A stretch of DNA of 64,000 bases. Origin: Acidaminococcus fermentans DSM 20731. Its GTDB lineage: Bacteria; Bacillota; Negativicutes; Acidaminococcales; Acidaminococcaceae. This document shows, piece after piece, positions 6,664-40,470 of the stretch (position 1 is its first letter; every line of letters begins with the position of its first letter). The notes under the pieces are model-generated. The model did no database searches, had not been told where the DNA came from, and saw only the letters and a list, made by a program, of their open reading frames with translations. The stretch spans positions 992,001 to 1,056,000 of the forward strand of contig NC_013740.1 in assembly GCF_000025305.1 (NCBI RefSeq). The letters run 5' to 3'. The translations under genes and the position numbers were made by a program.

Positions 6664-9525
6664 TCACTGTTCTCTCAACCGTTTTATGGCCAGGCGGTAG
6701 AATTTCCGGATTTTTCTTTTTGGATCGGTTCCCAGCCGGGGTTCGGCGGAATGGACGATGCTCCAGCGGAAGGTTACCGTAACCGGGTTTCCCTCCACCT
6801 GATGGATATCCTGGAGCCGTGCCTGGATTTTCCGGGCCAGGGCTTCCGATTCTTTCGGATCTTTCTCCCGGCGCAGGATGGCGAACATGGAATTGAAAAG
6901 CCGGGAAATGGAAGAATTCGTGCCCGCTTCCTCCCGGATGATCCGTCCTTCTTCATGGATCAGTTTCCGCAGCAGAGGCGCTTCGTAGGATTTCTTCAGG
7001 TATTCGTCGAACCGGCTTTCCAGCAGGATCAGGCAGAAGGAATCACCACTGGCTTCCATCTGCTCCTGGGTTTCCATCATATCGTTCAGGAATCCCTGGC
7101 GGTTCTGGAGACCGGAAACAGGATCTTCAAAGGGGGAGGGGAGGGTCTTCCGGAGCTCATGATACACCTGGTCCGCATCAAAAAACGTCCCCATAAGCCC
7201 CACAATCTGTCCGTCCCGGTAGATGGGCCATTTGTAGCAGGCAATATGATGCAGGGCCCCTTTTACGATGCATTCTCCAGGGATATTTTCCACCACTTTG
7301 CCCTTGTGGAGCACATCCAGTTCATCCTGCCGGTACGGTCCGTTGTCCAGATGCCAGTTCATGTCCTCATCGGTCTTGCCGATGATTTCCTGTTCCGAGG
7401 CAAAGCCGTAATGCCGGAGAAAGGCTTTGCTGGCCCCCAGGAAACGCCGTTCCTTATCCTTCCAGAAATAATTGGAATGGGTGTTTTTCCGGAAACTGTC
7501 CCACAGAAGAGCGGGCAGGGTATTCTTGTCTCCCGGAGAAACGGCGGCTACGGTTACCGGGCTGTCAATGGTCCGGGCTGTCGTAAGCAGCATGGGATGG
7601 GGCCCCTTGTAGAACAGGGTGGCCATGGTTTCCCTCCAGGTGTAATTGCCCTGGCTGTCTTTGGCACGGAAGAAATGGGAAATATAGCCTGTGGGACTTT
7701 TTCTGATCCGCTGGACCACCGTATCCTGGTCAAGGTAGGCCAGATAGCCGGACTGGTCTTCTTCATAAACCTGTTCCCGGGTAAATGTGCGGAGCACCGC
7801 CCGCATACCCTGGACTTTTTTGGAGAAGGGGGATTCATTGCTGTTGTTGGCATACATCTGTTCCATGGAGTCTCCGTCAAGATCCACCAGGAAGACTTCT
7901 TCGAACAGGCCGTACAGATACCGGAGATTGGCGTCCAGCTTATTCTGCCGGGAACTGGAACTGTTCTGGGAAATGTTCTGGAATTCCACCTGGACCAGCA
8001 GATGCTGGTTCATTTCACAGACCACCTGGACCCGGACGGCGATATAGTCCCCTTTGTCAACATAGAAAAAGGTTTTCGCACTGTGTTTCTTTCGGGCAAC
8101 CTGGATGAAGGTCCGCAGGGTGCGGATGCTTTCCTTCTTTTCCGGCTGATTCATATTGGTTTCGATATCCTGGATGGTGTATCCCAGTTTTTCCGCCTCT
8201 TCCTCATAAACTTTGTTCCAGAAAAGAAAACGAAGAGTACCTTTTTCGTCCATATCGAAGAGCGCTGTGGAACGGTCGGTCTGGCGGATGACCATGCTGG
8301 CCATATCGTAGAAACGGAACCATTTCCGGGGTTCCACGGTGCGGCCCGCTGCTTCCAGATGGGCCAGGACACCGGCCAGGGGCTGGGGTTTGCCAAAAAA
8401 GTAGCCCTGCATCCGGCCGCAGCCCATGGCTGCCAGGAAGTCCGCCTGTTCCTTTGTTTCCACCCCTTCCACCAGGGTCTTGACTCCCAGATCCTTGGCC
8501 ATGTTAATGACGGAAGCAATGATGCTCCGGGATTTTGCTGTAAAGTTCCGGAGAAAGCCCATGTCCAGCTTGATCAGATCCACCTGGTAATCCTTCAGCA
8601 CATTCAGGGAAGAATAGCCGCTGCCAAAGTCGTCCAGCCAGATTTCATATCCCTTTTCCCGCAGCTGGTCCAGTGCCTGATGGACCACCTGGGCGTTCTG
8701 GGCCAGGGTGCTTTCCGTGATTTCCACATGGAGAAAATCACGGGGCAGGCTGTACTTTTTCCGGGTGTTTTCCACCACACTGAACACATCCATGCTGTCA
8801 AAATCGTATCTGGACAGGTTGAAGGAAACCGGGGTAATGCACAGATTTTTGTCCAGCCGTTCCCGCAGCATCCGGCACACTTCCTCCAGCACATAGGCGT
8901 CCAGCCGGTGGATCAGCCGGGCCTGTTCCAGCACAGGGATGAAGGAGGCCGGGGACAGGAACCCTACCTGAGGATCCACCCACCGGGCCAGGGCTTCCAG
9001 ACCGCACAGTTCGCCTGTCAGGGTGCGGATCACCGGCTGGTAGTACACCTGGATCCAGTGGTTCTCCAGGGCCTCCTCCAGGTGCTCAGTCACATAGTCC
9101 CGGATGTCCCGGTCCACCGGCTGGCCGGTGGGGATGTCGATTTCCTGGAGCGTGCAGAAAAACACCTGGCCCCAGGTTTCCGTATTTACCGTCCGGCCAG
9201 AAACATCCGCATAGCGGATCCGGTTTTTCCGGGTGAACAAGTGGCCCTGGATATGGGAAAACCGGCCGTTCTTTTCGGCCAGTTCGCGCATGATTTCCTG
9301 GAAGCCCCGTTCCCGGTCTTCCGGAGCGAGTATATTGAGACCATCATTGTTGATGTGCCGGCGAAGCTCCTCCAGGTCCCGGCAGTCGAACAGCCGCAGG
9401 GTTTCTCTGTTGGCATAAAGCAGCGGAAAAGGCTCCTGCGACTGTACCACATAAAAACAGCAGGGTAGATTCTCGAAGCAATCCGGGAACGATCCCTTGA
9501 ACGACGTACAATTCGCAGATTCCAT
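6664..9525 (-). CDS. PAS-EAL-PAS-degenerate GGDEF signalling protein (probable c-di-GMP phosphodiesterase)
   Basis: A 953-residue soluble regulator without membrane helices. In order: a PAS-like domain (about 15-130); an EAL domain (about 145-395); a middle region with PAS-like stretches (about 400-690); a clearer PAS domain (about 700-805, HSNYFWKDKERRFLGASKAF); and a GGDEF-like C-terminus (about 815-945). The EAL domain keeps the catalytic set: EALARW, SFNLSR, HVEITES, DDFGSGYSS, LIKLDMGF, VEGVE, MQGYFFGKP. Phosphodiesterase activity is therefore expected. The GGDEF domain keeps the entry motif DPVSGLQNR, but the active-site GGDEF is replaced (around ISRLFNSMFAIL), so it is probably regulatory. 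Putting EAL before GGDEF is the reverse of the common order. Start ATG follows AAGGAG. Confidence 0.9.
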   Translation of the reverse strand: MESANCTSFKGSFPDCFENLPCCFYVVQSQEPFPLLYANRETLRLFDCRDLEELRRHINNDGLNILAPEDRERGFQEIMRELAEKNGRFSHIQGHLFTRKNRIRYADVSGRTVNTETWGQVFFCTLQEIDIPTGQPVDRDIRDYVTEHLEEALENHWIQVYYQPVIRTLTGELCGLEALARWVDPQVGFLSPASFIPVLEQARLIHRLDAYVLEEVCRMLRERLDKNLCITPVSFNLSRYDFDSMDVFSVVENTRKKYSLPRDFLHVEITESTLAQNAQVVHQALDQLREKGYEIWLDDFGSGYSSLNVLKDYQVDLIKLDMGFLRNFTAKSRSIIASVINMAKDLGVKTLVEGVETKEQADFLAAMGCGRMQGYFFGKPQPLAGVLAHLEAAGRTVEPRKWFRFYDMASMVIRQTDRSTALFDMDEKGTLRFLFWNKVYEEEAEKLGYTIQDIETNMNQPEKKESIRTLRTFIQVARKKHSAKTFFYVDKGDYIAVRVQVVCEMNQHLLVQVEFQNISQNSSSSRQNKLDANLRYLYGLFEEVFLVDLDGDSMEQMYANNSNESPFSKKVQGMRAVLRTFTREQVYEEDQSGYLAYLDQDTVVQRIRKSPTGYISHFFRAKDSQGNYTWRETMATLFYKGPHPMLLTTARTIDSPVTVAAVSPGDKNTLPALLWDSFRKNTHSNYFWKDKERRFLGASKAFLRHYGFASEQEIIGKTDEDMNWHLDNGPYRQDELDVLHKGKVVENIPGECIVKGALHHIACYKWPIYRDGQIVGLMGTFFDADQVYHELRKTLPSPFEDPVSGLQNRQGFLNDMMETQEQMEASGDSFCLILLESRFDEYLKKSYEAPLLRKLIHEEGRIIREEAGTNSSISRLFNSMFAILRREKDPKESEALARKIQARLQDIHQVEGNPVTVTFRWSIVHSAEPRLGTDPKRKIRKFYRLAIKRLREQ

Positions 9526-10988: not shown

Positions 10989-11150
10989 GATCCATTGCGG
11001 GTCCATAGGGGGCGCAGGCCCGGCGCCCCGCCAGAACACCATCTCCGCCGGAAACTCGATAACAGCCGTAGGGGCGAACCAAGGCCGGCAAAGCCGTGCC
11101 GCCTGGTTCGCCCGCTCACGCCGGGGGACCGTCCCGGCCGCCGGTCGGGC
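10989..11150. repeat. Dispersed GC-rich palindromic repeat, copy B (long form, ~160 bp)
   Basis: Begins GATCCATTGCGGGTCC, continues with the core hairpin (GGGGGCGCAGGCCCGG then CGCCCCGCC), a middle part AACTCGATAACAGCCGTAGG, and a second GC hairpin ending near CGGCCGCCGGT. It is nearly identical to copy C, in the same orientation, about 1.6 kb away. It contains no credible gene. Confidence 0.9.
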
Positions 11151-11859: not shown

Positions 11860-12330
11860 ATGAAAAAATGGACAATTGTGGGTCTCACAACACTTTTGAC
11901 GCTGGCTGCTTCGGCCGCATTGGCATCGGTACCGCAGAAATCCCTGTACTTGGGCGGCATCGGAATTGGCAGTGAGGGCTCCTATGTACGGCAGATATAC
12001 GGTGCCCCTACAGAAACGGAACGGGAACATTCTGCTTCCCATCCGTCGGGATCGGTGGTGGAATACGAATATGGGGATGGGGTCTCCCTCCATCTGGCGG
12101 AAGGCGTTGTCTATCAGGTAGAAGTGTCTGCCAACAACGGCTGGGCAACTCCGGAAGGGATCCACGTGGGAATGGACGCTTCCCTCCTGGAGGGGACCTA
12201 CGGAAAGCCGGACATGGTCCGTGGGGATAAATCCATCTACAGGGCGGAGGGTCTGCCCGGGGTGGGTCTGATCTTTGAAATCGAAAAGGGAAAAATCGAC
12301 GAAATCGAAATCGGCCCCATCGAACAGTGA
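11860..12330 (+). CDS. Exported protein with a duplicated BLIP/SmpA-like motif, function unknown
   Basis: A 156-residue protein with a signal peptide (MKKWTIVGLTTLLTLAASAA, cleavage likely after ALA about residue 23). The mature part has two similar motifs about 80 residues apart, GIGIGSEGSYVRQIYGAP and GIHVGMDASLLEGTYGKPD. Each is a glycine turn, a short helix and YGxP, resembling the repeat of SmpA/BLIP-like fold proteins. Hydrophobic beta-rich segments lie between. Start ATG 11860 is preferred over ATG 11851, because AAGGAGG ends one base before 11851 but sits 9 bases before 11860. It lies in the islet between repeat copies B and C, with a transposase remnant right after it. It is more A/T-rich upstream than the flanking core genes. 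No function can be assigned. Confidence 0.8.
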   Translation: MKKWTIVGLTTLLTLAASAALASVPQKSLYLGGIGIGSEGSYVRQIYGAPTETEREHSASHPSGSVVEYEYGDGVSLHLAEGVVYQVEVSANNGWATPEGIHVGMDASLLEGTYGKPDMVRGDKSIYRAEGLPGVGLIFEIEKGKIDEIEIGPIEQ

Positions 12331-12336
12331 CGAACA

Positions 12337-12570
12337 TCGTTTGGCCAGAGGAGTATCATCACTTTTAAAGTTACCTGACTGGTTTTCACGCCAGATAAGC
12401 CCGGCGTACTTTGCCAATGCTTCTTGAGAGTTGAAAGCTTCAATATGGCCAATTTCTGCCAGGATACCAGCGGCCATAACAGGTCCAATTCCAGGGATGG
12501 ATAAAAGGCTCTGATAGGCGTTAGGATCTAACCCTCGCAAGGTCTTCCATAGGCATTTTAAGGATTTCCT
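12337..12570 (-). pseudogene. Remnant of an IS110/IS116-type transposase (C-terminal domain only)
   Basis: The minus-strand frame encodes about 78 residues that match the C-terminal Transposase_20 domain of IS110-family DEDD transposases: IPGIGPVMAAGILAEIG, then FNSQEALAKYAGLIWRENQSG. The N-terminal catalytic DEDD domain is missing, and the frame has no start codon of its own. It is bounded upstream by dispersed repeat copy C (from 12572) and downstream by the end of the exported-protein gene 6 bases away, so the element was cut at both ends. IS110-family members are known to insert into REP-like palindromes, which makes contact with a palindromic repeat meaningful. Confidence 0.8.
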
Positions 12571-12571
12571 C

Positions 12572-12727
12572 GCGGGTCCGTAGGGGGCGCAGGCCCGGCG
12601 CCCCGCCAGAACATCATCTCCGCCGGAAACTCGATAACAGCCGTAGGGGCGAACCAAGGCCGGCAAAGCCGTGCCGCCCGGTTCGCCCGCTCACGCCGGG
12701 GGGGCCGTCCCGGCCGCCGGTGGGGCC
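12572..12727. repeat. Dispersed GC-rich palindromic repeat, copy C (long form)
   Basis: Nearly identical to copy B over about 150 bp, from GCGGGTCCGTAGGGGG to CGGCCGCCGGTGGGG, in the same orientation. It lies between the IS110 remnant and the MntA-HepT promoter. Confidence 0.9.
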
Positions 12728-21773: not shown

Positions 21774-22085
21774 ATGAACTGCAAAGAAGAGGATATGGAA
21801 AAATTCCATTATCCGGAGCTGTTGGGAACCTGGGGGAAAACCATGGACCTGGTTTATGGATACAACGAAGTCCAGTACTGCTGCAATACCTATCAATACA
21901 ATGATTATTCCCGTTACCGGCAGAACCTTTTTGATGGAGCGGACAAGAAGCGGCAGAGGGAGGAAGTCTTTCCCCAGGACCTGAAAAAGTCCTGTGACCT
22001 GGGGATGCGACTGACCCGGATGGCGAAGGAAGCCAGCAAAGCTGGCTTTGAACAACGGAAACCGTTATATAAATCGTTTCTGTAG
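21774..22085 (+). CDS. Hypothetical protein, probably truncated at its 3' end by repeat copy E
   Basis: About 103 residues with no recognised family; it contains HYPELLGTWGKTMDLVYGYN and CDLGMRLTRMAKEASKAGF. The frame is open upstream back to 21657 without a start codon (reads like NKYVGNTTDERFSQS), and the ribosome site before ATG 21774 is poor, so the start is uncertain. The TAG stop (22083-22085) lies inside the GTAGGGG core of the dispersed repeat, so the natural C-terminus was probably lost. It may be a pseudogene. Confidence 0.4.
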   Translation: MNCKEEDMEKFHYPELLGTWGKTMDLVYGYNEVQYCCNTYQYNDYSRYRQNLFDGADKKRQREEVFPQDLKKSCDLGMRLTRMAKEASKAGFEQRKPLYKSFL

Positions 22086-22162
22086 GGGCGGCAGGCCCGG
22101 CCGCCCGCCAAATCAGCCGTTGACCATGTGTTGTGCGGGGCGCCGGGCCTGCGCCCCTACGG
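22082..22162. repeat. Dispersed GC-rich palindromic repeat, copy E (inverted pair)
   Basis: Two cores face each other. GTAGGGGCGGCAGGCCCGG is at 22082; a reverse copy ends CCTGCGCCCCTACGG at 22162. About 30 bp containing CAGCCGTTGACC lies between. This is the bipartite layout of BIME-type REP elements. Confidence 0.88.
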
Positions 22163-22209
22163 TCTTTCTTTTTTATTTCAAAATCAATTTGCAAAATTGA
22201 TTTCCTTAA

Positions 22210-30937: not shown

Positions 30938-31011
30938 AGGAGTATAGTTCAATGGTAGAGCAACGGTCTCCAAAACCGTCGATCTGGGTTCGAATCCTAG
31001 TACTCCTGCCA
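30938..31011 (+). tRNA. tRNA-Trp (CCA)
   Basis: Acceptor AGGAGTA/TACTCCT, anticodon loop CTCCAAA (CCA), T-loop GGTTCGAATCC and encoded 3' CCA. Confidence 0.97.
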
Positions 31012-31020
31012 GTGAATTTG

Positions 31021-31491: not shown

Positions 31492-31519
31492 GGAGACCAT
31501 CTGCCGGGGGCAGATCTCC
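31492..31519. repeat. Hairpin repeat of the ATCTGCC family, copy 1
   Basis: GGAGACCATCTGCC faces GGCAGATCTCC around GGG. Related sequence occurs near 34829, 55236, 57119 and, inverted, 61478. The remaining intergenic stretch to 31638 holds nothing else recognised. Confidence 0.7.
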
Positions 31520-31638
31520 GTGGGTAAAGAAAAAGTCCAGGGTTTGTGTGCGGGGTTTCATAGGTAAGGCTCCTTTATACAACAGATACTTTTATTGTAG
31601 GGAAAAGGGGGATAAGAGTCAATGTTCCCCGGGCCTCC

Positions 31639-31667
31639 TTGACGAAATGAAGAAAATTTGTGATAAT
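31639..31667 (+). promoter_or_regulatory. Promoter of the alcohol dehydrogenase gene
   Basis: TTGACG (31639-31644), 17-bp spacer, GATAAT (31662-31667). An imperfect palindrome (ATTGTCAGA / TCTGAAACAAT, 31695-31716) downstream could be an operator. Confidence 0.75.
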
Positions 31668-31730
31668 AGAATCAGAAAATGTTAAAAATGTTTAATTGTC
31701 AGAAATCTGAAACAATCAGGAGGTGCTTCA

Positions 31731-32786
31731 ATGAGAGGATATGCCATGCTGAAAATCGGGGAATCGGGATGGATCGAAAAGGAGCGGCCGGTATGCGGCC
31801 CCCTGGATGCCATCTGCCGTCCCATTGCTGTAGCCATCTGTTCGTCCGACGTCCATACCCTGTGGGCCGGGGCCATCGGGGACCGGCACAATATGATCCT
31901 GGGCCACGAATGCTGCGCTGAAGTGGTGGAAGTGGGCAGCCTGGTGAAGGATTTCAAACCCGGTGACCGGGTGCTGGTGCCCGCCATTACTCCGGACTGG
32001 AGTTCCGAAGCGGCCCAGGCCGGATGGCAGCAGCATTCCGGCGGGATGCTGGGCGGCTGGAAGTTCTCCAACTATAAAGACGGGGTGTTTGCGGATTTCT
32101 TCCATGTGAACGATGCGGATGGGAACCTGGCCCATCTGCCGGAGGGGATGGACCCGGTGGATGCCTGCATTATGTCCGACATGGTTCCCACCGGCTTCCA
32201 TGCGGTGGAACTGGCGGATGTCCAGTTCGGAGATACGGTGCTGGTCATCGGCATCGGTCCTGTGGGCCTGATGTCCGTCCGGGCCTGTGCCCTACGGGGA
32301 GCCAGCCGGATCATTGCCGTGGGGACCCGGCCGGTGTGCCGTCAGGTGGCCAGGGAATACGGAGCCGATGAATTCATCAGCTACAAGGAAGGCCCCATCT
32401 TCCAGCAGGTGCTGGATATGACCGGCGGCGCCGGGGTGGACCGGGTGTGCATTGCCGGGGGCACGGTGGATACCTTCAGCGAAGCCATCAAATGTCTGAA
32501 ACCCGGGGGACGGATCGGCAACGTGAATTACCTGGGTTCCGGGGATTATGTGAAGATCCCCCGGGTGGAATGGGGCGCCGGGATGGCCAACAAGACCATT
32601 GCCGGAGGGCTTATGCCGGGGGGCCGGCTGCGCATGGAAAAACTTTCCAGCCTGGCCACCAGCGGGCGTCTGGATCTCCACAAGGAAGTCACCCATATCT
32701 TCCAGGGGAAGGAACATGTGGAAGAAGCACTGTTCATGATGCGGGACAAACCTGCCGATCTGATCAAACCGGTGGTCATCTGGTAA
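31731..32786 (+). CDS. Zinc-dependent alcohol dehydrogenase, NADP-type secondary alcohol dehydrogenase family
   Basis: A 351-residue medium-chain dehydrogenase. Catalytic zinc ligands are Cys in AICSSDVHT (about 37), His-Glu in LGHECC (about 59-60) and Asp in SDMVPTGFHA (about 150). This is the Cys-His-Asp set of Thermoanaerobacter brockii and Clostridium beijerinckii secondary ADH, and the structural-zinc cysteine cluster is absent, as in those enzymes. The cofactor segment GIGPVGLMS then AVGTRPVC resembles the NADP-specific GSRP pattern. Likely reaction: interconversion of secondary alcohols and ketones, or aldehydes, with NADP(H). AGGAGG precedes ATG 31731. Confidence 0.9.
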   Translation: MRGYAMLKIGESGWIEKERPVCGPLDAICRPIAVAICSSDVHTLWAGAIGDRHNMILGHECCAEVVEVGSLVKDFKPGDRVLVPAITPDWSSEAAQAGWQQHSGGMLGGWKFSNYKDGVFADFFHVNDADGNLAHLPEGMDPVDACIMSDMVPTGFHAVELADVQFGDTVLVIGIGPVGLMSVRACALRGASRIIAVGTRPVCRQVAREYGADEFISYKEGPIFQQVLDMTGGAGVDRVCIAGGTVDTFSEAIKCLKPGGRIGNVNYLGSGDYVKIPRVEWGAGMANKTIAGGLMPGGRLRMEKLSSLATSGRLDLHKEVTHIFQGKEHVEEALFMMRDKPADLIKPVVIW

Positions 32787-32795
32787 AAATGGAAC

Positions 32796-32835
32796 AGGGG
32801 GGCGCTGCTTGATGGGCAGCAGCCCCCTTCTTTTT
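32796..32835 (+). terminator. Terminator after the alcohol dehydrogenase
   Basis: GGGGGC-GCTGC faces GCAGC-AGCCCCC (one bulge), then TTCTTTTT. It overlaps the 5' region of the GTPase gene, which may rely on read-through. Confidence 0.75.
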
Positions 32836-32853
32836 CCTGCAGGGAGGATTGCC

Positions 32854-33819
32854 ATGAAAATACTCATTGTCTCCGGCTTCCTGGGAGCCGGAAAAACCAC
32901 CTTCATCCGTCATCTGACGGATACGCTTCCCCAGGTGGATTTTGCCATTTTTGAAAATGAAATCGGGGAAACGGACCTGGATGCCAAGGTCCTGCGGGAT
33001 GGGGACCGGAGCCTGAATGTGTACGAAATGACGGAAAACTGCGTGTGCTGCACCGGCAAGGCGGATTTTCTCACCAACCTGATGACCATCCTCTCCGCCC
33101 TGGATCCGGAAGTGCTCATTGTGGAGCCTACGGGAGCAGCCCGGCTCAGTGCCCTGATGGGGGCCATCGAGGGGCTGCAGTACGACGCCCTGGAACTGCT
33201 GCCGCCCCTGACCCTGGTGGATGCCGGGACATTTTTCCGGGAAAAGGATGATTTCAGTGAGCTGCGCCTGGACCAGATCCGTCATGGATCCGTACTGGTT
33301 CTGTCCAAATCGGAACAGCTGTCCCCGGAAGAGACGGCGGTTTACCGCCAGGAACTCCAGGAACTGGCTCCGGAGGCGGAGATCATCACCGGGGATTACA
33401 AAAAACGGTCCGCAGACTGGTTCCGGAGCCTGCTGGAAAAGCGGGGAGGACTAGTCCTGGCGCAAGAGGATCATGAACCCTGCCAGGAACACCACCATCA
33501 TGACCATGACCATCATCACGGAGAAGAGGCCCTGACCACTGTGACCCTGACCCGGGTGGCCGTGCCCCATCCCCTGTACCTGATGCGGTTCCTGGACCTG
33601 GTGACCAAAAGCTGTTTCGGCCGGATTCCCCGGGCCAAAGGGTATCTGCCCTGCGGGAACGAATGGGTCCGGTTCGATCTGGTCCAGGACCGGTGGCTGA
33701 TTACTGGTTTTCCCCCCCAGGCAGAGGCCCGGGTGACCCTGATCGGAACCCGGCTGAAGGAAGAAGCGGCCCGGAGCTGGTTTGAAGGGGCGGAGGGAGC
33801 TGCAAGGTCCGGGCTATAA
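32854..33819 (+). CDS. G3E family GTPase (CobW/COG0523), putative metallochaperone
   Basis: A 321-residue P-loop GTPase with Walker A GFLGAGKT (8-15), the metal-binding CxCC motif ENCVCCTGK (Cys63, Cys65, Cys66), EPTGAA, the guanine motif variant SKSE, a histidine-rich insertion around 208-222 (HHHHDHDHHH) and a CobW C-terminal domain ending in the LIGTRL strand. COG0523 proteins deliver Zn, Co or Fe to target enzymes. ATG 32854 is used because GGGAGG precedes it; an in-frame ATG 45 bases upstream lies inside the terminator hairpin. The preceding gene encodes a zinc enzyme and only 67 bp separate them, so a client relation is possible but unproven. Confidence 0.93.
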   Translation: MKILIVSGFLGAGKTTFIRHLTDTLPQVDFAIFENEIGETDLDAKVLRDGDRSLNVYEMTENCVCCTGKADFLTNLMTILSALDPEVLIVEPTGAARLSALMGAIEGLQYDALELLPPLTLVDAGTFFREKDDFSELRLDQIRHGSVLVLSKSEQLSPEETAVYRQELQELAPEAEIITGDYKKRSADWFRSLLEKRGGLVLAQEDHEPCQEHHHHDHDHHHGEEALTTVTLTRVAVPHPLYLMRFLDLVTKSCFGRIPRAKGYLPCGNEWVRFDLVQDRWLITGFPPQAEARVTLIGTRLKEEAARSWFEGAEGAARSGL

Positions 33820-33830
33820 CAGTTGGCGGT

Positions 33831-34247
33831 TCATTCCGTAAGAAGATAGCTGGCCTTTATGAGAGCCAGGATGGCTTCGTCCGCCAAAGAATTATCCAGC
33901 ACCACAGAAATCCACAGCCGGTGGTTCATGTGATAGGCAGGATAGATGCCGGGAATGTGGTGGAGCTGTTCCGCCTCCTGGGGCCGGATCTTCAGATTCA
34001 TCACGTCGAGCAGGTCAGGGGTGCCATCCTTGTGGAGGACCGTACGCTTCACATTCATGATGAGGGCGAACCATTTCCGGTTGGAAGCATGGCGGAAAAT
34101 TCCGTAGGACTGGTAACGGGCAGAATGTTCCCAGGGAAAATCCGGCCTGACCTGGAACTGGTCCAGGATCTGCCGGGTGAGCCGGTTGGCCTGGGGAGAA
34201 GCAAAAAGGACATCCCGGCAGCAGTGGTCGGCAATGTCTCGCAGCAG
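33831..34247 (-). pseudogene. Truncated MmcQ/YjbR-like gene, N-terminal part missing at repeat copy F
   Basis: The minus-strand frame is open from about 34247 to 33831 and gives about 138 residues: LLRDIADHCCRDVLFASPQA, YQSYGIFRHASNRKWFALIM, MNHRLWISVVLDNSLADEAI. It matches the C-terminal portion of the long YjbR (DNA-binding-like) family, whose members have about 80 further N-terminal residues. Homology ends where the GGGCGCCGGGCC core of the dispersed repeat begins. There is no start codon upstream; the first in-frame ATG is at 34058 and lies inside the conserved domain. The simplest reading is a 5' deletion or insertion mediated by the repeat. Confidence 0.8.
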
Positions 34248-34288
34248 GGCGCCGGGCCTGCGCCCCCTACGGGACGGAACACAATGGC
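34247..34288. repeat. Dispersed GC-rich palindromic repeat, copy F
   Basis: Inverted relative to B-D: GGGCGCCGGGCCTGCGCCCC followed by CTACGGGACGG and CAATGG. It abuts the broken 5' end of the YjbR remnant. Confidence 0.85.
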
Positions 34289-34310
34289 GGGTCGTCGGGC
34301 TTCCCCTGTA

Positions 34311-34319
34311 TGGTACAAT
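34311..34319 (+). promoter_or_regulatory. Extended -10 promoter of the mini-lipoprotein gene
   Basis: TGGTACAAT, 24 bases before the start codon. Confidence 0.5.
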
Positions 34320-34342
34320 AGAAAGAAAAAAGGAGGCCTGCC

Positions 34343-34495
34343 ATGAGAAAATATTGGAGCTTGGCCGCCCTGCTGGTCCTGGCCTTTTTGCTTGTTCTCC
34401 TGGCCGGCTGCGGAGTGGACCAAAGACAGAGGGACGGGAAGACCGGGGCCTCGCCGGTGAGGATCAGTGGGCCGCTTCGGGGCCCAGTCTTCTAG
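34343..34495 (+). CDS. Very small lipoprotein, function unknown
   Basis: A 50-residue frame with a strong start context (AAAGGAGG 7 bases before ATG 34343). It encodes a textbook lipoprotein signal (MRKYWSLAALLVLAFLLVLL, then AGC lipobox with Cys about 23) and only about 27 hydrophilic residues afterwards (GVDQRQRDGKTGASPVRISG). It could be an entericidin-like mini-lipoprotein or a longer lipoprotein gene cut short; the tail has no recognisable domain. Confidence 0.6.
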   Translation: MRKYWSLAALLVLAFLLVLLAGCGVDQRQRDGKTGASPVRISGPLRGPVF

Positions 34496-34506
34496 TCTCT
34501 GGCCGG

Positions 34507-34527
34507 ATGAACGACTCACGATGAACC
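34507..34527. repeat. Heptameric tandem repeat tract, 3 units
   Basis: ATGAACG, ACTCACG, ATGAACC in 7-bp register, just before the DUF1294 ribosome site. Confidence 0.6.
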
Positions 34528-34542
34528 CCAAAGGAGGAACTC

Positions 34543-34824
34543 ATGCCAATCCATTTTACCCCTTTCACTGGGGGGCTTTTGCTGATCAATCTCATTACGT
34601 TTGCCGCTTACGGCTATGACAAATTCTGTGCCAGGCGGGGAGCCTGGCGGGTGCCGGAAATCCGGCTGCTTCTTTTGGCGGCGGTGGGGGGCAGCCTGGG
34701 AGCCCTGTTGGCCATGTTCCTGTTCCGGCACAAGACGAAGCATCTGAAATTCACCATCGGGGTGCCGGTGATCCTGGGGCTGCAGATTTTTCTGGGGGTG
34801 AATTTTCTCATCGCCAGTCAGTAG
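34543..34824 (+). CDS. DUF1294 family small membrane protein
   Basis: A 93-residue protein with three hydrophobic segments: about 8-22, 43-61 (LLLLAAVGGSLGALLAMFLF) and 72-90. The diagnostic DUF1294 motif is YGYDKFCARRGAWRVPE followed by RHKTKHLKF. The function of this inner-membrane family is unknown. AAAGGAGG lies 5 bases before ATG 34543. Confidence 0.9.
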   Translation: MPIHFTPFTGGLLLINLITFAAYGYDKFCARRGAWRVPEIRLLLLAAVGGSLGALLAMFLFRHKTKHLKFTIGVPVILGLQIFLGVNFLIASQ

Positions 34825-40165: not shown

Positions 40166-40193
40166 GGAGGCTGCTGCGTCTGCAGCAGCCTCC
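40166..40193. terminator. Hairpin after the TetR-like gene
   Basis: Twelve-bp perfect stem GGAGGCTGCTGC/GCAGCAGCCTCC with loop GTCT. No T-run; a heptameric tract starts at its last base. Confidence 0.65.
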
Positions 40194-40217
40194 AGTCGGA
40201 AGTCAGAAGTCGGAAGC
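40194..40217. repeat. Heptameric tandem repeat tract, 3 units
   Basis: AGTCGGA, AGTCAGA, AGTCGGA, AG in exact 7-bp register, abutting the preceding hairpin. Confidence 0.8.
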
Positions 40218-40266
40218 CTCTGGAAAGGATCTGCCTTGAAAGTCAGATTCCGCCGATTGTGTAAAA

Positions 40267-40351
40267 CCGTAGGGGGCGCAGGCCCGGCGCCCCGCTCAAG
40301 GCACGGACAATCCATGTGCCATGCGGGCGGCCGGGCCTGCCGCCCCTACGG
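40267..40351. repeat. Dispersed GC-rich palindromic repeat, copy G (inverted pair)
   Basis: CCGTAGGGGGCGCAGGCCCGG at the left and a reverse core ending CCTGCCGCCCCTACGG at the right, separated by about 30 bp. The whole forms a long imperfect palindrome like copy E. Just after it AATTTGCCTGCAAATT (40372-40388) is another palindrome. Confidence 0.88.
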
Positions 40352-40403
40352 AACCGATTTACACATTCCTGGAATTTGCCTGCAAATTTATCCAGGGGCT
40401 CCT

Positions 40404-40431
40404 GATTTCAGACTCCCGATTTCAGATTGAG
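40404..40431. repeat. Heptameric tandem repeat tract, 4 units
   Basis: GATTTCA, GACTCCC, GATTTCA, GATTGAG in 7-bp register. It runs into the hairpin GAGCCGC/GCGGCTC (40429-40445). Confidence 0.75.
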
Positions 40432-40470
40432 CCGCTTTGCGGCTCTCCTGCAGCATAAAGGAGGGATACC

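Follow-up and report, generated by a model that had tools for sequence, protein, structure and literature searches.

A stretch of minus-strand coding sequence in Acidaminococcus fermentans DSM 20731, at 33831–34250, is probably (we put the chance at roughly 0.6) a young pseudogene that retains the 3′ three-fifths of a long-YjbR gene. It lies at the right end of a ca 2.7-kb segment, adh-cobW-yjbR′, which is absent from two sister species, and the joins would have arisen through illegitimate or short-homology recombination, with a REP-like repeat copy as the site of breakage or joining. Positions are given in the window, that is, the whole stretch of 64,000 nucleotides that was analysed (992,001 to 1,056,000 of contig NC_013740.1); the genome has 2,329,769 bases in one contig. 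The features discussed below are collected in Table 1.

Table 1. Features of the segment, its edges and its flanks, in window coordinates.
Feature	Position	Strand	Remarks
Left flank	31518–31629	−	85% identical to a G003 stretch; there, by eye, a minus-strand gene begins, the G003 version being longer
Left TTCCCC of the 6-bp direct repeat at the segment edges	31625–31630	+	
Segment with adh, cobW, yjbR remnant and repeat	31631–34300		absent from the equivalent site of sister species G003 and G007
Alcohol dehydrogenase-like gene (adh)	31731–32786	+	93% identical to the adh of G004; named from matching annotated plasmid genes
CobW-family gene (cobW)	32854–33819	+	start assigned at an ATG; convergent with yjbR, its end being 11 bases short of the yjbR stop
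3′ remnant of a long-YjbR gene	33831–34250	−	139 codons and stop; whole PF04237 domain retained; no usable start upstream of 34058
Solo REP-like repeat copy	34244–34272	−	headed by GTAG if the minus strand is read; the core with CTACGG spans 34247–34272; overlaps the first two or three aligned codons
Bases between repeat and segment edge	34273–34300		28 bases; unlike the missing YjbR part (compared within 34273–34342)
Right TTCCCC of the 6-bp direct repeat at the segment edges	34301–34306	+	
Right neighbour, small lipoprotein-like gene	34343–34495	+	also present in G003 and G007; reading frame and name assigned by eye

The identity of the remnant is clear from its domain. Residues 50–154 of the minus-strand frame 33831–34301 match PF04237 (YjbR) with an E-value of 1.6e-17 and 64.3 bits, against a curated cut-off of 30.1. 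When the frame is aligned with the first 227 residues of the 228-residue protein L096 (Veillonellaceae bacterium Marseille-P2974), its residues 18–155 pair with residues 89–226 free of gaps, so that the alignment covers the DNA between 34250 and a point just short of the stop codon (33831–33833). An earlier note on this DNA had described a coding match that runs uninterrupted from this stop to the repeat, whose core begins at 34247, and the alignment bears this out. The coding similarity ends at the start of the 29-bp repeat; since the repeat takes in the first two to three aligned codons (A-L-L), the junction, at about 34243–34250, can be placed only to a few bases.

The N-terminal 88 residues and the start codon are absent at the locus. 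The note was right that the N-terminal part is lost, its estimate of about 80 residues being too low by this alignment, and right about the start codon as well, as the open frame lacks ATG, GTG and TTG everywhere upstream of 34058. Because the N-terminal part of ca 88 residues that precedes the domain in the long family is missing here and was not found in the genome, we regard the sequence as a remnant and not as a full member of the long YjbR family; it probably gives no YjbR protein. The equivalog model PRK10250.1 (MmcQ/YjbR, NCBIfam) scores the remnant at 27.4 bits, below its curated cut-off of 183 bits, and the intact long relatives P0002 (32.3 bits) and L096 (31 bits) fall below it likewise. 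There is no sign of foreign origin in the third-position GC content of 0.70, which is inside the range of the neighbouring genes (0.70–0.81).

The break looks recent, given that the remnant contains no stops and retains all of the conserved columns in its kept part (28 of 28). Out of 32 columns conserved at 90% or more among 75 proteins, it differs at four, and all four are gaps upstream of the break. The dN between the remnant and its three relatives L096, L097 (Allisonella histaminiformans) and L098 (Mitsuokella multacida) is 0.20–0.22, while pairs among these three give 0.23–0.26; as dS is saturated or nearly so, no dN/dS ratio was drawn. Either the break is recent or constraint persists, and the former is more likely because a start codon is lacking.

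The three closest intact relatives have 224–228 residues and are 70–73% identical to the remnant, and for the closest five the identity over the kept part is 64–73%. A scan with one genome per species gave 142 relatives, the best 80 of which were analysed. The match begins at residue 1–6 of the 139-residue fragment in 73 of these 80 loci, and at least 88 open codons lie upstream in 71 of the 73, the remaining two being cut by a contig end. The upstream ATG is at least 86 codons away in 68 of the 71 and 70–77 codons away in three. Seven of the best 80 loci encode short YjbR proteins, which match from residue 20–24.

One could still imagine that what remains functions as a short YjbR gene, translated from 34058 or from a non-standard start codon close to the repeat. 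Short YjbR proteins do exist, the frame is open over 210 codons and holds rare start codons such as CTG and ATT, and the conserved columns are kept and the dN is not raised. However, a recent break accounts for this conservation, 34058 is inside the Pfam domain, and by eye there is no Shine-Dalgarno-like run just upstream of it. The earlier note had named intact, genuinely short orthologues starting at 34058 as what would speak against a truncation; they were sought, and none of the best 80 of the 142 loci starts at this position (fragment residue 65). We therefore consider a functional short gene very improbable.

The same note had proposed an alignment with intact orthologues of related strains and a search for the missing 5′ part elsewhere, next to another repeat copy; no intact orthologue came to light in the genus, and no 5′ part in the own genome. 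In a class-wide search of 380 genomes, 123 including the own genome match the orthologue from genome G043 at E ≤ 1e-10, the own genome only from residue 89. Long YjbR is present in other genera of the family, but it was not found in the eight other genomes of the genus (E ≤ 0.001). Only G006 among them has any YjbR match at this threshold; it is 34% identical over 118 residues, and we rejected it as the intact orthologue since it is a different YjbR. Searching the own genome with the full-length G043 orthologue (227 residues, 57% identical) gave nothing beyond the remnant, and a profile built from six orthologous N-terminal parts had no match there at E ≤ 10. Weak matches to the lost 5′ part in G002 (E 0.16), G008 (E 0.28) and G003 (E 0.79) were taken as chance. 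Nor is the lost half on the far side of the repeat: the best score of 34273–34342 against the missing N-terminal part is 16, compared to a shuffle mean of 21.5, and 299 of 300 shuffles reach it.

We now turn to the repeat itself. Its core, GGGCGCCGGGCCTGCGCCCC, is located at 34247–34266, and the window holds 12 core matches at up to three mismatches, where 0.04 would be expected; several of the 12 are the same place counted on each strand. The core followed by CTACGG, at up to two mismatches, occurs 51 times in the own genome, the reversed pattern not at all; the corresponding numbers are 17 in G007, 5 in G003 and 0 in six other genomes of the genus. On the minus strand the sequence reads CCGTAG and then a predicted 6-bp stem with a 7-nt loop, so that the GTAG stands outside the stem as in GTAG-type REPs, although on neither strand does the 29-mer fold with a better energy than its shuffles (z −0.08 and −0.42). 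Inverted pairs of the kind called REPINs are found within 40267–40361 and 22070–22165, with fold z of −5.8 and −6.2, while the copy at 34244 is solo. Further palindromic repeats headed by GTAGGGG but with other stems, for example GTAGGGGCGAACC...GGTTCGCCC, are present at 11068, 12643, 57004, 57060 and 58390 in the window, and are apparently related repeat classes.

No RAYT flanked by copies was found in the own genome. The sole PF01797 match at E ≤ 0.01 is a frame of 137 codons beside a TnpB-like frame, and its 3.4-kb locus contains neither CCGTAG nor CTACGG; we take the pair to be an IS200/IS605 element. As the only Y1 transposase match adjoins a TnpB-like frame and has no repeat copy near it, we found no RAYT matching the repeats.

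The repeat and 28 further bases separate the broken yjbR end from the right edge of the segment, and these 28 bases have no second copy in the own genome, except for a few bases adjoining the repeat. In G003, window positions 31518–31629 and 34301–34796 match the neighbouring stretches 7055–7166 and 7163–7669, which overlap by four bases. In G007, 31576–31629 (the weaker left match, 76%, E 2e-4) and 34301–34511 match 7508–7561 and 7558–7768, again overlapping by four bases. The left flank thus runs straight into 34301 onward in both species, which means that 31631–34300 is extra in the own genome relative to both. A shared run of six or more bases, such as the TTCCCC at the two edges, was seen at two random window breakpoints in a fraction of 0.00175 of 20,000 trials; the identity may be due to chance, or be a target duplication made by some element.

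The segment sits between a HIRAN-domain gene and the small lipoprotein-like gene, at a variable spot behind a tRNA-Asp/Gly/Trp cluster. In G003, ca 8.3 kb separate the equivalents of 31515 and 31518. In G007, the tRNA-Trp gene and the HIRAN gene are ca 39 kb apart (G007:C34 10856 to 49744), and the end of the tRNA (window 30993–31020) is matched on both sides; this stretch looks like an element integrated at tRNA-Trp. To the left of the segment, 31518–31561 is by eye the beginning of the minus-strand gene that is longer in G003; this appears to be another gene remnant, adjacent to the insertion.

The two complete genes of the segment are patchily distributed. At E ≤ 1e-20, cobW was found in the own genome, G004 and G006 among the nine of the genus, and not in G003, G007, G005 and G008; adh, at E ≤ 1e-60, was found in the own genome and G004 among six searched, again not in those four, and was seen in G006 by local comparison. 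In G004 and G006 the adh-cobW pair is flanked by genes that are presumably serC-like and lemA-like (in G006 by eye). A move of the segment from this position was considered; as the site is conserved in the own genome, G003 and G007 without adh-cobW, it does not identify the source of the segment. The DNA identity to the G004 pair is 75% over 31656–33724; since the match starts at 31656 and ends at 33724, the noncoding part left of adh is also shared with G004, and the yjbR remnant is not. Neither adh nor cobW was found near YjbR in other genomes at E ≤ 1e-5 (0 of 16 distinct YjbR loci, L061 and L101 being the same contig and counted once). A search of plasmids gave 19 records with partial matches only, at 60–80% identity and up to 30% of the query, in the adh part.

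The earlier note had read the locus as direct evidence that the repeat, or recombination at it, destroyed a gene. Part of this stands, namely that the gene is truncated and that a repeat copy is at the break. That the repeat was the cause does not follow, because the break is at the edge of a larger inserted segment absent from sister species and no state before the break was found, there being no intact copy in the eight other genomes of the genus and no 5′ half beyond the repeat or elsewhere. The repeat may be the cause, a joining site or a later passenger. In the reading that we prefer, the joins would have arisen during formation or insertion of the segment, through recombination that was illegitimate or relied on short homology, as the 6-bp identity at the outer edges suggests, and the REP copy at the inner break would mark a site of breakage or joining instead of a clean insertion. 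The repeat could equally have been inserted first. An ancestral yjbR may have been lost, which is conceivable because of the long YjbR in other genera; an intermediate with adh-cobW beside an intact yjbR was absent from the 16 distinct YjbR loci.

Closer to the earlier note is the scenario in which a mobile REP transposed into an intact yjbR and a later deletion, going outward from the repeat, took the 5′ half. The repeat is exactly at the break, and the copy numbers given above vary within the genus. The paired copy at 40267–40361 is in a stretch (40191–40456) that G007 lacks and in whose place G003 has a different sequence, and another copy follows a YadA-type frame with a partial anchor match. 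Still, with the 5′ half not on the far side of the repeat, this scenario must assume a second event, no RAYT with REPs was found in the genome, and the copies seldom touch recognizable genes. On balance we consider it rather unlikely, though well ahead of the other alternatives.

The last of these points comes from a scan confined to exact copies, which covered 24 out of 26, all but the copies at genome positions 1005670 and 1658703. Frames were cut at the ends of the 3-kb loci, and Pfam matches were accepted at E ≤ 0.001 in one batch and E ≤ 0.01 in the others; the YjbR frame, taken as P0001 from 34301 onwards in its reading direction, was scanned separately, and the remaining 29 in batches. 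Thirty frames of at least 110 codons cross the core, and only the yjbR, YadA-type and IS110 frames match a Pfam family, so that a repeat copy touching a recognizable gene is the exception.

The YadA-type adhesin frame (L197, genome 193036, 391–1557 on the plus strand) matches its anchor domain only at 4–38 of 60 and is then followed by a paired repeat copy; it may be another case of a gene that lost one end at a repeat. The IS110-type transposase remnant (window 12172–12690, minus strand) adjoins the repeat copy at 12578–12603 and has only Transposase_20, with no N-terminal domain matched in the frame. IS110 elements are described as inserting into REPs (PMC1525189). A more general proposition would be that a REP family which lacks a RAYT transposase of its own is still moving in this genus, and that its copies are breakpoints where genes (yjbR, the YadA-type adhesin, the IS110 remnant) permanently lose one end, so that the spread of REPs drives gene loss. 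We regard this as improbable and offer it as a speculation.

An assembly artefact at the repeat was also considered, as the junction falls at a multi-copy sequence. This is scarcely credible: the genome is finished in a single contig, the core spans only 26 bp, and the flank beyond the segment keeps the order of the sister species. According to the genome report, Sanger finishing reads resolved the repetitive regions (PMC3035267).

What we have here looks like a fairly ordinary, recently broken gene; the same genome report counts 75 annotated pseudogenes in strain VR4 (PMC3035267). The remnant provides a small and clear case of a gene that was broken at a repeat within a region of rapid turnover, and a warning that a repeat at a broken gene end need not have caused the break. 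Should it be true that the repeats of this genus sit at many such ends, they would serve as markers for the spread and the harm of REPs that lack a RAYT.

Finally, the locus can be compared with known systems. The long YjbR proteins (PF04237) of Negativicutes and Clostridia, such as L096, L097 and L098, have the same C-terminal end as the remnant but possess the N-terminal part of 88 residues together with a start codon. With L096 as query, the relatives of the domain with a solved structure, judged by sequence, are PSPTO_3016 (2kfp, 3h9x) and, more weakly, 2a1v and YjbR (2fki). A literature search on REPIN and RAYT in Firmicutes found nothing, and no report of REPs in Acidaminococcus was among the matches listed. 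The main text of the survey of GTAG repeats names Proteobacteria, Cyanobacteria, Chloroflexi and PVC as carriers and does not mention Firmicutes (PMC3733652), while the later paper on the RepRanger tool refers to REPs in Bacillota such as Bacillus subtilis (PMC12306157). Genes interrupted by REPs are among the cases that the survey describes (PMC3733652), and there too a REP touches coding sequence; those REPs are inside frames, whereas for yjbR no second half could be found. Unlike the described GTAG-tagged REPs and REPINs (PMC3733652; PMC3116915), the present repeat has no copy-flanked RAYT that we could find in its genome. Otherwise it resembles them: the GTAG head stands outside a GC-rich stem-loop that is short, the copies number in the tens, and they occur both solo and as inverted pairs with differing stems.
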